From Candidatus Mycobacterium wuenschmannii (GTDB taxonomy: Bacteria; Actinomycetota; Actinomycetes; Mycobacteriales; Mycobacteriaceae): 64,000 nucleotides of DNA. The notes under the pieces are model-generated. The model was not told the DNA's origin and ran no database searches. It saw only the letters and a program-made list of their open reading frames with translations. A program made the translations under genes and the position numbers. Shown in pieces: positions 59,314 through 63,311 of the stretch; within the stretch, counting starts at the first letter, position 1; each line of letters begins with the position of its first letter. The stretch spans positions 4,216,001-4,280,000 of the forward strand of contig NZ_CP126981.1 in the NCBI RefSeq assembly GCF_030252325.1, in the 5' to 3' direction.

Positions 59314-61167
59314 CTAGTCGCCAGTGCGCTGGTATTTGTCTTCGAATTCGCCTGCAGCACAGGAGCTACCGACGATCTCGTTGTGGCCGTGGCCGACGAG
59401 CAGTGGAATTGGGTCCTGCAGCGGGTCCGGCAGAGGGTATTCGGCGCTGAGCTTGAAGTGGGCGGTCTCGCCCGGATTGCAGGGCACCATTCCTTCGTCG
59501 TCGCGGGTCCACTTGTTGTTGCTGAAGACCAGTGGCACGACTCCGTCGATCGCATGAAACAGGCTCATGCATCGCTCTGCATTCCGCAGGCACACGGTAC
59601 GGACGGTGAGATCGGCTTGTCCCGGCACCGTAGCGCCGTTCGCGTAGGTGATCGTCTCGTGATAGCGGCCGTGTAGCGCGGTGGACACCGACGCCGCGCG
59701 CGGTGGCAGGGATGCCGGATCGGGGACCTTTGTCGGGTCGGGAGCGCCTGTGCGGGTGAAGGTTACGGTGCGCTTGGCCGCGCCACAGCTGTTGACGGTC
59801 GAGCGTGTGGTGTCGCCGGTGAGGGTGCCGTCGGGTTGTGGTTGCAGGGTGAAGACCACCCACACCTCGGTGGGTGCGTCGTTGCACGAGGTCGAGGCGA
59901 GGCTCACCGCGACCCAGGTTGCGCCGATCTGGTCGAACACCAGGTTGGAGACCAGCACGATTCCGCTGTTGCCGGTGTAGGCCGCGGTGGCGACGCAGCC
60001 GCCGACACCGCAGTTGGATCGCACGTCCCAGGTGCCGGTCATCGGCGGCGCGTCAGGGGCCGGCTTGCCCTCGAGGTCGGTACCCGGACCGTAGTCGGCG
60101 CGATACGTCCCCGAGAATTCGTGAGTCGCTGGCGCGGGCGGGGCGGCGGTGTGGTGTTTGTCGCGGTCGAGCCACAGCACCCCGGTCAGCACCGCGGCCA
60201 CCAGTACAACGGCGCTGACTGCAAGGGCCGCAATGAGTTTCACCCGCGGAGTCCGACGCACCGGAGTGACGAGGGTGGGCGCCGGCTGAGGCGCCGTCGG
60301 CGGAGGCGGGGCGGGCGTGCGCACCCGGCTCGACGACGGGTCGAGCGCGCGGTTCAGCTCTCGGGCGAACTCGCCGCAGCTGTCGTAGCGGTCCGCGGGT
60401 GTCTTGGCCATCGCTTTAGCCAGCACCGCGTCCAACGCGACCAACGCGGGTCGCCGTTCGCTCGCCAGCGGCACCGGCGCGGCGACGTGCTTGGTGATCA
60501 CCACCGCGGGATTGGAGTCGGCGTAGGGCGGCCCGCCGGTCAACAGATCAAAAGCTGTGCAGGCCAACGCATATTGATCGGTACGGCCGTCGAGCGGCTC
60601 ACCGCGCAGCTGCTCTGGTGCCGCATACGACATGGTTCCGACCGCCATGTTCGTTGCCGTCAACCCTGACGGATCGTCGATGAGGCGAGCAATGCCGAAG
60701 TCGGCGAGGAAGATTCGTTGCGCCGTGGGATCCAGCAGGATGTTGGCGGGCTTGACGTCGCGGTGCAACAGCCCCTGCTGGTGGGCGTAGTCCAGCGCCG
60801 ATGCGACCGCGGTGACGATCTCCAGCGCCTGTTCGACGGGCAGGCCGTCGGGGTGTTGCTCGCGGACCAGCTTCGATGCATCGGTACCCCCGACGTAATC
60901 CATCGAGATCCACAACTGTCCGTCGTATTCACCACGATCGTGAACACCCAGGATGTTGGGGTGCGACAGGCTCGCGGTCAGGTTGGCCTCGCGGAGAAAG
61001 CGCTCCCGGTACTCGGGGTCCGCGGTCCACTGTGCGGATAACACTTTCAGCGCGTCCTGGCGCGGCAACCGCGGATGCGCCGCCAGATACACCGAGCCCA
61101 TGCCGCCCGCCCCGAGTACCCGCAGGATCGTAAATCCCGCAAACGCCTCGCCCACCGATACCGGCAT
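59314..61167 (-). CDS. Transmembrane serine/threonine protein kinase
   Basis: 617 residues. Kinase domain 1-275: G-loop LGAGGMGSVYLA, Lys41, HRDVKP with Asp137, DFG Asp156 in LADFGIARL, activation loop containing TNMAVGTMSYAAPE. A Pro-rich juxtamembrane stretch, one membrane helix at about 310-333, then a ~280-residue extracellular domain with many Cys (DVRSNCGVGGCVATAAY and later pairs). It is divergent from an EmbR-like FHA regulator, a typical substrate. TAGGAT on the minus strand (61174-61179) lies just before the ATG, consistent with leaderless expression. Confidence 0.95.
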   Translation of the reverse strand: MPVSVGEAFAGFTILRVLGAGGMGSVYLAAHPRLPRQDALKVLSAQWTADPEYRERFLREANLTASLSHPNILGVHDRGEYDGQLWISMDYVGGTDASKLVREQHPDGLPVEQALEIVTAVASALDYAHQQGLLHRDVKPANILLDPTAQRIFLADFGIARLIDDPSGLTATNMAVGTMSYAAPEQLRGEPLDGRTDQYALACTAFDLLTGGPPYADSNPAVVITKHVAAPVPLASERRPALVALDAVLAKAMAKTPADRYDSCGEFARELNRALDPSSSRVRTPAPPPPTAPQPAPTLVTPVRRTPRVKLIAALAVSAVVLVAAVLTGVLWLDRDKHHTAAPPAPATHEFSGTYRADYGPGTDLEGKPAPDAPPMTGTWDVRSNCGVGGCVATAAYTGNSGIVLVSNLVFDQIGATWVAVSLASTSCNDAPTEVWVVFTLQPQPDGTLTGDTTRSTVNSCGAAKRTVTFTRTGAPDPTKVPDPASLPPRAASVSTALHGRYHETITYANGATVPGQADLTVRTVCLRNAERCMSLFHAIDGVVPLVFSNNKWTRDDEGMVPCNPGETAHFKLSAEYPLPDPLQDPIPLLVGHGHNEIVGSSCAAGEFEDKYQRTGD

Positions 61168-61173
61168 GGCCAG

Positions 61174-61179
61174 ATCCTA
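61174..61179 (-). promoter_or_regulatory. Candidate -10 hexamer for a leaderless kinase transcript
   Basis: On the minus strand this reads TAGGAT and ends 6 bases before the kinase ATG at 61167, so transcription would start at or next to the start codon. Leaderless mRNAs are common in mycobacteria. No clear -35 is visible. Confidence 0.4.
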
Positions 61180-61235
61180 TCCGGAAGCTATGCTGCTTTT
61201 GTTTAGCTGGCGAACCTGGTGAGCGCGGAAACAGC

Positions 61236-62405
61236 ATGATGGCCGATAGGTCGAACGCCGACAGCCCCTTTGCGGCTGCCCAATTCGGCGTCTTGGGTCC
61301 GCTGCAAGTGCTCGTGGGTGCGAAATCGGTGCCGCTGGGCACGCCGAAGCAGCGCGCCGTGCTGGCGATGCTGATCGTCAACGCGAATCGACCGGTCAGC
61401 ATCGACTCGTTGATCAGTGCGGCCTGGGATCAGCGGCCCCCGGAGGGTGCCCGGGCCACGCTGCACGCTTACATTTCGAATCTGCGCCGACTGATGAGTG
61501 ATGCGGGCATCGACCGTTCCGTTCTGCTCAGCACACCCCCGGGATACCAGCTGACGATCAGCGACGACAACTACGACTTCGGGCGCTTCATTGCCGCGAA
61601 GAACGCCGGCGTGCAGGCCGCGGCGGCCGCGCAGTTCGAGCAGGCCAGCGGTCACCTACTGGAAGCCCTTGGCCAGTGGCGCGGTCCGGTTCTCGAGGAC
61701 CTCAGCGACTTTCAGTTCGCCGAGACCCTTGCCGCGGCACTCGACGAGGAGCGCGTACTCGTTCACATCGCCCGCGCAGAGGCCGAGATCGCTTGTGGCC
61801 GACCACACACCGTGATTCCGGAGCTGGAGGGCCTGACCGCCAGGCATGGTTATCGAGAACCCTTGTGGGCGCAGCTGATTACCGCCTACTATCTGGCGGA
61901 CCGCCAATCGGATGCCCTGGATGCCTACCTGCGGCTGAAATCTTTACTGGCCGAGGACCTGGGCATCGACCCGGGATGGACGATCCGCGAGTTGTACGAG
62001 CGGATCCTGCGTCAGGAGCCGCTGGACGCCCGCAAAATCGCCCAGTCGCACGCCGAAGACACCATTGTCGCGCAGTCGGACAACGCAATCGGCGCACGCC
62101 GGAGTGCGAAGGCAGTGCTGGTCGCTGCCGACGGGCGTCGATATCCGTTGGCCGGCACGGCGACCCGCATCGGGCGCAGTCCGGACAACGACCTCGTGTT
62201 GTCCGGTGCCAAGGTCAGCCGCCACCACGCGGTGATCGCCGACGACGGACGGACCATCCTCATCACCGACCTGGGGTCGGCCAACGGAGTGCGCGTGCGC
62301 GGCACACGCATTGACCCCAGCGCCGAGCTACACCACGGTGATGCGATCCGCATCGGCGACGAGGAGTTCACGCTCGAGGCCGGAGTCGATCCGGCGCTCC
62401 GTTAA
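61236..62405 (+). CDS. EmbR-like regulator: wHTH, BTAD and FHA domains
   Basis: 389 residues. A winged-helix DNA-binding domain (about 15-110), a bacterial transcriptional activation domain (about 115-265), and a forkhead-associated domain (about 295-385) with RIGRSPDNDLVLSGAKVSRHH and GSANGVRVRG. FHA domains bind phosphothreonine, so the divergent kinase is the likely upstream partner, as PknH is to EmbR. The stop codon is inside the first of two 34-bp repeats that precede the next two genes. Confidence 0.92.
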   Translation: MMADRSNADSPFAAAQFGVLGPLQVLVGAKSVPLGTPKQRAVLAMLIVNANRPVSIDSLISAAWDQRPPEGARATLHAYISNLRRLMSDAGIDRSVLLSTPPGYQLTISDDNYDFGRFIAAKNAGVQAAAAAQFEQASGHLLEALGQWRGPVLEDLSDFQFAETLAAALDEERVLVHIARAEAEIACGRPHTVIPELEGLTARHGYREPLWAQLITAYYLADRQSDALDAYLRLKSLLAEDLGIDPGWTIRELYERILRQEPLDARKIAQSHAEDTIVAQSDNAIGARRSAKAVLVAADGRRYPLAGTATRIGRSPDNDLVLSGAKVSRHHAVIADDGRTILITDLGSANGVRVRGTRIDPSAELHHGDAIRIGDEEFTLEAGVDPALR

Positions 62406-62744: not shown

Positions 62745-62768
62745 GTCGGAGTACGACTTCACGCGGCA

Positions 62769-62802
62769 TTAAGGATCCATAAAGCCCTCTCTCGCACAGT
62801 GA
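62769..62802 (+). promoter_or_regulatory. 34-bp element copy 2, candidate BTAD-regulator site
   Basis: Aligned without gaps to copy 1 over 34 bases, 29 identical. It has the same TTAAGGATCCA start, a second heptamer TAAAGCC at the 11-bp offset, and the CACAGTGA end, 38 bases before the LpqH-like start codon. Confidence 0.62.
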
Positions 62803-62840
62803 TGACGACAACGTCAGCAACACCAACAAGGAGTCCCTAA

Positions 62841-63311
62841 ATGAAACGCAACATCCTGATCATGGCCGGTACGGCGGCCACCCTCGCCACCGTGATGGTG
62901 GGATGCTCACACAACGACAAGGCCGTCAGTGTCGGCAACGCCGCGGTCGCTCCCGCCGGTTCGTCGAACACCAAGGTTGTCATCGACGGCAAAGACCAGA
63001 ACGTCAAGGGCCAGGTCGCCTGCACCACCGCCGCCGGCACTGTCAACATCGCTATCAGCGGAGGCGCCCCTGGTACGCCCACGGGCATCGGCGCCGTGCT
63101 GAGCGACGCCAACCCGCCGGTCGTGAAATCCGTTGCGCTGGGCAATGTCAACGGCGTGACCCTGGCCGTCGGCGGTGCCAGCGGCAAGGCCGATGCCACC
63201 AAGGACGGCAGCTCGTACAAGATCAGCGGCACCGCCAGCGGCGTGGACATGGCCAACCCGATGGGTGGACCGGTCAACAAGCCGTTCGAACTCGACGTCA
63301 CCTGCCCCTAG
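62841..63311 (+). CDS. LpqH-family lipoprotein (19 kDa antigen family)
   Basis: 156 residues with the lipobox VMVGC (Cys22). The mature part has the 19-kDa-lipoprotein pattern: TKVVIDGKDQNVKGQVACTT, NIAISGG near the middle, and an SGTASGVDM...FELDVTCP end, with two cysteines that pair in the family. Envelope lipoprotein, often a strong TLR2 ligand in relatives. AAGGAG precedes the ATG. Copy 2 of the 34-bp element lies directly upstream. Confidence 0.92.
   Translation: MKRNILIMAGTAATLATVMVGCSHNDKAVSVGNAAVAPAGSSNTKVVIDGKDQNVKGQVACTTAAGTVNIAISGGAPGTPTGIGAVLSDANPPVVKSVALGNVNGVTLAVGGASGKADATKDGSSYKISGTASGVDMANPMGGPVNKPFELDVTCP

Follow-up and report, generated by a model that had tools for sequence, protein, structure and literature searches.

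The closest described relatives of the system reported here are the PknH-EmbR pair of Mycobacterium tuberculosis and the AfsK/AfsR-afsS system of Streptomyces. The system itself lies in a 64,000-nucleotide stretch of the Candidatus Mycobacterium wuenschmannii genome (the window; C1:4216001-4280000 of the 5.10-Mb genome G000; coordinates below are in window numbering) and comprises a membrane Ser/Thr kinase, an EmbR-type regulator, and two 34-bp elements ahead of neighboring genes. In M. tuberculosis, EmbR was the earliest kinase substrate to be identified, and it is phosphorylated by PknA, PknB, and PknH (PMC4601284). Its paralog EmbR2 (56% identity) acts on the same kinase, but is described as unable to accept phosphate and possibly a natural inhibitor (PMC4601284). 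In an M. tuberculosis embR deletion mutant, 116 genes were changed and 90 of these were lowered, including lpqH (PMC9239209). Direct EmbR targets are unsettled, as embCAB is reported to be bound in vitro yet is unchanged in the mutant. For the hspX promoter, the same paper describes no significant binding. At afsS, the two 11-bp direct repeats bound by the activator AfsR cover the -35 region and lie 8 bp from a -10 hexamer that is suboptimal, CACTGT (PMC10936776). No published operator was found for EmbR, and none was seen for EmbR2, in literature coverage that mostly excluded subscription papers; in PMC9817126 and PMC10312376, EmbR appears in the reference lists only.

The locus in the window is best explained as a compact local kinase-EmbR circuit with the promoter architecture of Streptomyces antibiotic regulatory proteins (SARPs), with a probability of roughly 0.8. 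As in PknH-EmbR, a membrane Ser/Thr kinase accompanies a winged helix-turn-helix, BTAD, and FHA regulator that is similar over nearly its full length (residues 16-382 match the M. tuberculosis EmbR structure 2fez, E 3.7e-137). In contrast to PknH-EmbR, the kinase-regulator pair is divergent, the regulator does not group with the classical EmbRs in the tree, and it is predicted to have its own small local promoter set. The likeness to the Streptomyces system includes a BTAD activator, under kinase control in the case of AfsR, as well as 11-bp repeats, 8-bp spacing, and a weak hexamer (CACAGT here, CACTGT at afsS). However, the repeats hold TTCAGC at afsS and TTAAGGA here, AfsR has NOD and TPR domains where this regulator has FHA, and the base-contacting T88 and R92 of AfsR correspond to A and N by hand alignment (PMC10936776). 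The features of the locus are as follows.

62402..62435, plus strand: box 1, TTAAGGATCCA + GTAAGCGCTGT + CCCG + CACAGT + GA
62428..62433, plus strand: predicted -10 hexamer CACAGT of promoter 1, from SARP geometry
62769..62802, plus strand: box 2, TTAAGGATCCA + TAAAGCCCTCT + CTCG + CACAGT + GA
62795..62800, plus strand: predicted -10 hexamer CACAGT of promoter 2, from its position 8 bp after the second heptamer
59304..59271, minus strand: box 3, TTAAGAATGCA + TTCAGCGCTGC + TTTC + TAGCGT + GA, by matrix score
61236..62405, plus strand: EmbR-type regulator, 389 aa (winged helix, BTAD, and FHA)
59314..61167, minus strand: membrane Ser/Thr protein kinase, 617 aa (Pkinase, E 2.8e-41; motifs; homologs in relatives)
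61168..61235, no strand: divergent kinase-regulator spacer, with CTATGCTGCT...TTTAGCTG conserved in four loci (by eye)
62490..62744, plus strand: membrane protein, 84 aa, predicted target 1 (213 homologs)
62841..63311, plus strand: LpqH-family (19-kDa) lipoprotein, predicted target 2 (Myco_19_kDa, PF05481, E 1.8e-31)
58948..59265, minus strand: predicted exported protein, 105 aa, behind the kinase gene, predicted target 3

Promoter Elements and Local Gene Content

Boxes 1 and 2 are identical at 29 of 34 positions, whereas the best 34-base pair reached 26 in 200 surrogates drawn from a first-order Markov model of the region. Each box has two heptamers with starts 11 bp apart (TTAAGGA/GTAAGCG in box 1 and TTAAGGA/TAAAGCC in box 2), and CACAGT follows 8 bp past the second heptamer, which is the spacing of SARP promoters. 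The boxes end 54 and 38 bases, respectively, ahead of the start codons, and the first repeat of box 1 overlaps the stop codon of the regulator gene. No third copy was found in the 5.10-Mb genome with two strict patterns allowing up to three mismatches (reversed controls, 0 and 1). A preliminary description, made from the sequence alone, had noted the two elements, their 29/34 match, their distances from the start codons, and their SARP-like geometry; all of its coordinates hold, and the geometry is confirmed on both copies. Its gene identities agree with the domain matches, and it overlooked the stop-codon overlap of box 1 and the weaker third copy at 59304-59271 on the minus strand.

The regulator has the domain order Trans_reg_C, BTAD, and FHA without NOD or TPR, as in EmbR-type SARP-FHA proteins. 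Its FHA domain carries intact IGRS, SRHH, and SANG motifs, which we take to be the phospho-threonine-binding residues and which are expected of an EmbR-type regulator. In the kinase, the Gly-loop, HRD, DFG, and APE catalytic motifs are all intact. Residues 309-327 form its strongest hydrophobic stretch by hydropathy, and eight cysteines lie C-terminal to this stretch, in the presumed extracytoplasmic part. The lipoprotein has a lipobox-like MVGC (by eye) ahead of its Myco_19_kDa domain, consistent with the LpqH family, and the 84-aa membrane protein matches no Pfam family. No box was scored by the matrix in the spacer (61168-61235), and Rfam at gathering thresholds gave no match in 56000-64000.

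Conservation in Corresponding Loci

Regulator homologs with E below 1e-150 are present in four of the 396 genomes of the genus, namely G000, G213, G411, and G172 (next best, 2e-142), and the element pattern with up to three mismatches matches exactly the same four. The G411 EmbR-type protein is identical to P0034 (source label M. cookii), and G172 is a fragmented genome with 93% completeness and 7% contamination. The kinase homologs in the three relatives are 72-82% identical to that of the window, and the kinase gene is divergent from the regulator gene in all four loci. Box 2 lies upstream of the lipoprotein gene in every case. Both boxes are present in 4/4 loci, though the genes after box 1 vary: the 84-aa protein in G000, the 84-aa protein and an AIM24-family gene in G213, a 54-aa protein and AIM24 in G172 (AIM24 by Pfam), and AIM24 alone in G411. 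Box 1 has drifted in G172 and G411 (CTTAGAATCCATTAAGGC... and CTTAGGATCCGTTCAGGC..., placed by eye and not by the pattern), with the 11- and 8-bp spacings and the hexamer kept. Across the four loci, mean pairwise identity is 0.83 for box 2 (0.29 and 0.31 in its 60-base flanks) and 0.64 for box 1 (0.29 and 0.36 in the flanks).

These comparisons establish the box as a conserved sequence feature, along with its geometry, its footprint, and its co-occurrence with the regulator, and they make the pairing of box and regulator as secure as a comparative analysis allows here. The preliminary description had suggested searching the genome and related mycobacteria for the element, which, with up to three mismatches, proved to occupy two places in the genome and to be present in four of 396 genomes; boxes are present in all four corresponding loci. 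Its proposed link between regulator, boxes, and envelope genes is strongly supported by this co-occurrence, by the boxes in the four loci, and by a box class shared with EmbR paralogs (see below). The predicted target set appears larger than it proposed, with a third predicted promoter in the window and the AIM24-family gene in the relatives.

Related Boxes at EmbR Paralogs and Across the Genus

With a looser pattern, nine matches were obtained in 40 genomes (reversed control, 0), six in the corresponding loci and three elsewhere. For each of the latter, an EmbR paralog follows 1.5 to 3.1 kb downstream, with a LysR-type gene (Pfam) in between and, in two cases, another gene as well. Of the 31 EmbR-type loci outside G000 with at least 52% identity, 20 were scored with a matrix of 11 boxes. 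The best site exceeded the top control score of 8.4 in 10 of the 17 non-training loci, including one (L059) that did so through an unaccepted site. Among 14 paralog sites inspected, most have a third 11-bp repeat upstream (CCAAGAA/TTGAGAATCC/CCAAGGG type), and seven precede secreted proteins of about 95-131 aa that are DUF732-like (Pfam confirmation for one, L084). The sites of L063 and L064 fit poorly, and that of L047 has no convincing gene behind it.

A triple-repeat pattern that contains no hexamer was then applied to 40 genomes and gave 72 matches (reversed control, 3). Seventy of these (about 69 arrays) are in 15 of the 23 EmbR-carrying genomes, and the other two are in 2 of the 17 genomes without EmbR, corresponding to 0.53 vs. 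0.02 matches per Mb (Fisher p 0.001). The 17 EmbR-lacking genomes consist of 14 without a match better than 6e-45 and three (G097, G102, and G374) known only to lack a 1e-110 match. In 63 of the 70 sites, xAxxxT starts exactly 8 bp past the last heptamer, which is again the SARP promoter spacing, while the 21 other offsets have 0-6 of 70 each. This share is 9/9, 26/27, and 28/34 with increasing number of pattern mismatches, and xAxxxT at 8 bp is found in neither match from the EmbR-lacking genomes. Ten of the 70 sites have an EmbR gene less than 5 kb away, against 0.2 expected, an excess that is partly circular because several of those loci shaped the pattern. Because a related box marks sites in other mycobacteria that carry EmbR-type genes, the box is probably a DNA target of the EmbR regulator family, as judged from sequence comparison.

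As separate observations, a TTAAG-type box in L045, L046, and L060 starts 187-325 bases upstream of the start of the LysR-type gene, with the EmbR paralog behind it, which suggests autoregulation via a long leader. In L110 (G006:C1:3316615), a box-like site with two mismatches precedes a kinase gene, the product of which is 67% identical to the window kinase over 188 residues.

A Weaker Predicted Third Promoter in the Window

Box 3 ends 5 bases before the ATG of the exported-protein gene and its hexamer 7 bases before, as in a leaderless transcript. In the window it scores 20.2 against a control maximum of 7.4, with a matrix whose training included the window's boxes. Matrices built without these boxes were used to scan the window and 80 stretches of 20 kb, or about 1.66 Mb of the 5.10-Mb genome (8 kb counted twice). 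Box 2, box 1, and box 3 are the top three sites with the combined matrix (34.7, 32.7, and 20.0; best reversed control, 17.7). With the triple-repeat-only matrix, box 2, box 1, and the site at 59304 (minus strand) again rank highest (25.5, 24.7, and 16.5; best reversed control, 16.0). A counterpart of box 3 is present in G172, together with a related gene behind the kinase gene (39% protein identity over 51 residues, E 1e-9, from a single comparison); neither was seen behind the kinase gene in G213 and G411. Box 3 is weak by itself and is retained because of its location and the G172 counterpart.

Regulator Phylogeny and Recognition Helix

In a tree of 40 regulator sequences, those of the window, G213, and G411 belong to a group of 10 (support 100/99). 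The three LysR-linked regulators fall in a separate group (100/100), and the classical EmbRs fall in a third with 19 members (100/98). Recognition helices were compared in the 35 locus entries where a pattern found them, several of which are duplicates. The variants are LHAYISNLRR, LYAYVSNLRH or LYAYVSKLRR, IHSYVSNLRK (25 entries), and a single LHSYVSNLRR. The window regulator has HAYISNLRR, and IHSYVSNLRK, common to most of the classical paralogs compared, is also the helix of M. tuberculosis EmbR. A rule pairing S or A in the helix with CAAG or TAAG boxes is not claimed, since G026, with a single EmbR-type gene of the classical kind, has TAAAG repeats (L098).

Proposed Mechanism and Alternative Explanations

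The 34-bp elements would serve as operator and core promoter for the adjacent regulator. Two adjacent regulator molecules may occupy the 11-bp direct repeats, which would cover the -35 region, and recruit RNA polymerase to the weak -10 hexamer 8 bp on, in the manner of AfsR at afsS. The divergent membrane kinase would sense an envelope signal and control the regulator through phosphorylation and FHA docking. The predicted outputs are three promoters, two of them for the genes of the 84-aa membrane protein and the LpqH-family lipoprotein and a third, less certain one for the exported-protein gene next to the kinase gene. AfsR and PknH-EmbR are the precedents from which activation and the kinase step are inferred, and the kinase step is further suggested by the divergent pairing in 4/4 loci and by the intact kinase and FHA motifs. 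The locus would represent a minimal system with one kinase, one regulator, and three promoters.

Several points weigh against this kinase-EmbR circuit. The corresponding loci number only four, and box 1 of G172 and G411, located by eye, is only 53-56% identical to that of the window. The G172 regulator, together with P0066 and P0088, branches outside the window's group and the other two groups, beneath an outgroup branch of great length; therefore, its orthology rests on gene order and not on the tree. Box 3 is barely above the control in the triple-repeat-only scan. No triple-repeat match is present in 8 of the 23 EmbR-carrying genomes, including G000, G213, and G411, the boxes of which are of the TTAAGGATCC type. 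Conversely, L086 (G012:C1:1698963) is a perfect triple repeat in a genome with no EmbR detected, and has no -10 hexamer. In addition, EmbR adjacency and the resemblance to the boxes of the window involve some circularity because the pattern was derived from EmbR loci and a matrix of window-type boxes; this does not apply to the 8-bp hexamer or to the presence/absence contrast. Finally, the kinase might act on additional substrates, and the regulator might be phosphorylated by different kinases.

This last point leads to the least improbable of the alternatives, in which the regulator uses the boxes but takes its main input from other kinases (PknA/PknB type) or a ligand. Such promiscuity is known for M. 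tuberculosis EmbR, a substrate of three kinases (PMC4601284), and 3 of the 20 paralog loci (L045, L048, and L052) have no kinase match on the stretch of sequence covered, although the L048 and L052 stretches end near EmbR on one side. The preservation of the divergent pair in all four corresponding loci and the box-like site ahead of the related kinase gene in G006 argue for the neighboring kinase, and this alternative is rather unlikely. It is considerably less probable that the element is the site of another regulator and serves these genes by chance. The genome does encode at least one other BTAD protein, which is AfsR-like (C1:747391), but the element co-occurs with the EmbR-type regulator, related boxes lie upstream of EmbR paralogs, and the geometry is that of SARPs. 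The 29/34 identity of neighboring copies might also mean that promoter DNA was recently duplicated or that the element is a mobile repeat, with no regulatory meaning in either case. This is highly improbable, given that the copies persist where flanks average 29-36% identity between species, box 1 of G172 and G411 retains the repeat spacing and hexamer despite its divergence from box 2, and no further genomic copies exist with up to three mismatches.

Beyond the local kinase-EmbR circuit, it is moderately likely that the whole EmbR family recognizes 11-bp repeats of the CAAGAATCC/TTAAGGATCC type, arranged in tandem and located 8 bp from a weak -10. The M. tuberculosis protein is probably included because most of the classical paralogs compared share its helix IHSYVSNLRK, and paralogs whose helix differs may use repeats with shifted letters. 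The main direct targets would then be small exported or membrane proteins (DUF732 and LpqH types) and some biosynthetic genes, rather than embCAB. With a predicted operator of fixed geometry, direct targets in EmbR-carrying mycobacteria can be tested one promoter at a time.

Genes Behind the Triple-Repeat Sites

The genes downstream of the triple-repeat sites are diverse. A hydrophobic N-terminus is encoded by 38 of 70, based on crude gene calling (best-scoring start) and with no background rate. A recurring downstream family is found at 50 of the 72 matches, which is an upper estimate because any reading frame and same-genome paralogs were counted. By downstream protein, 12 matches cluster together as DUF732. 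A Pfam scan of proteins behind 18 sites identified DUF732, C39-like and M48 peptidases, HMGL-like, cysteine dioxygenase, PTPS, GTP cyclohydrolase I, thioesterase, cytochrome b5, a kinase, and some DUFs; L071, L099, and L116 had no Pfam match, and L078 and L117 had matches only below the curated cut-off. Moreover, boxes of this kind recur in several species (L071, L075, L087, L088, L090, L105, L131, and others), ahead of genes for GTP cyclohydrolase I, PTPS, cysteine dioxygenase, thioesterase, HMGL-like proteins, and cytochrome b5, which perhaps belong to a shared biosynthetic pathway under an EmbR.

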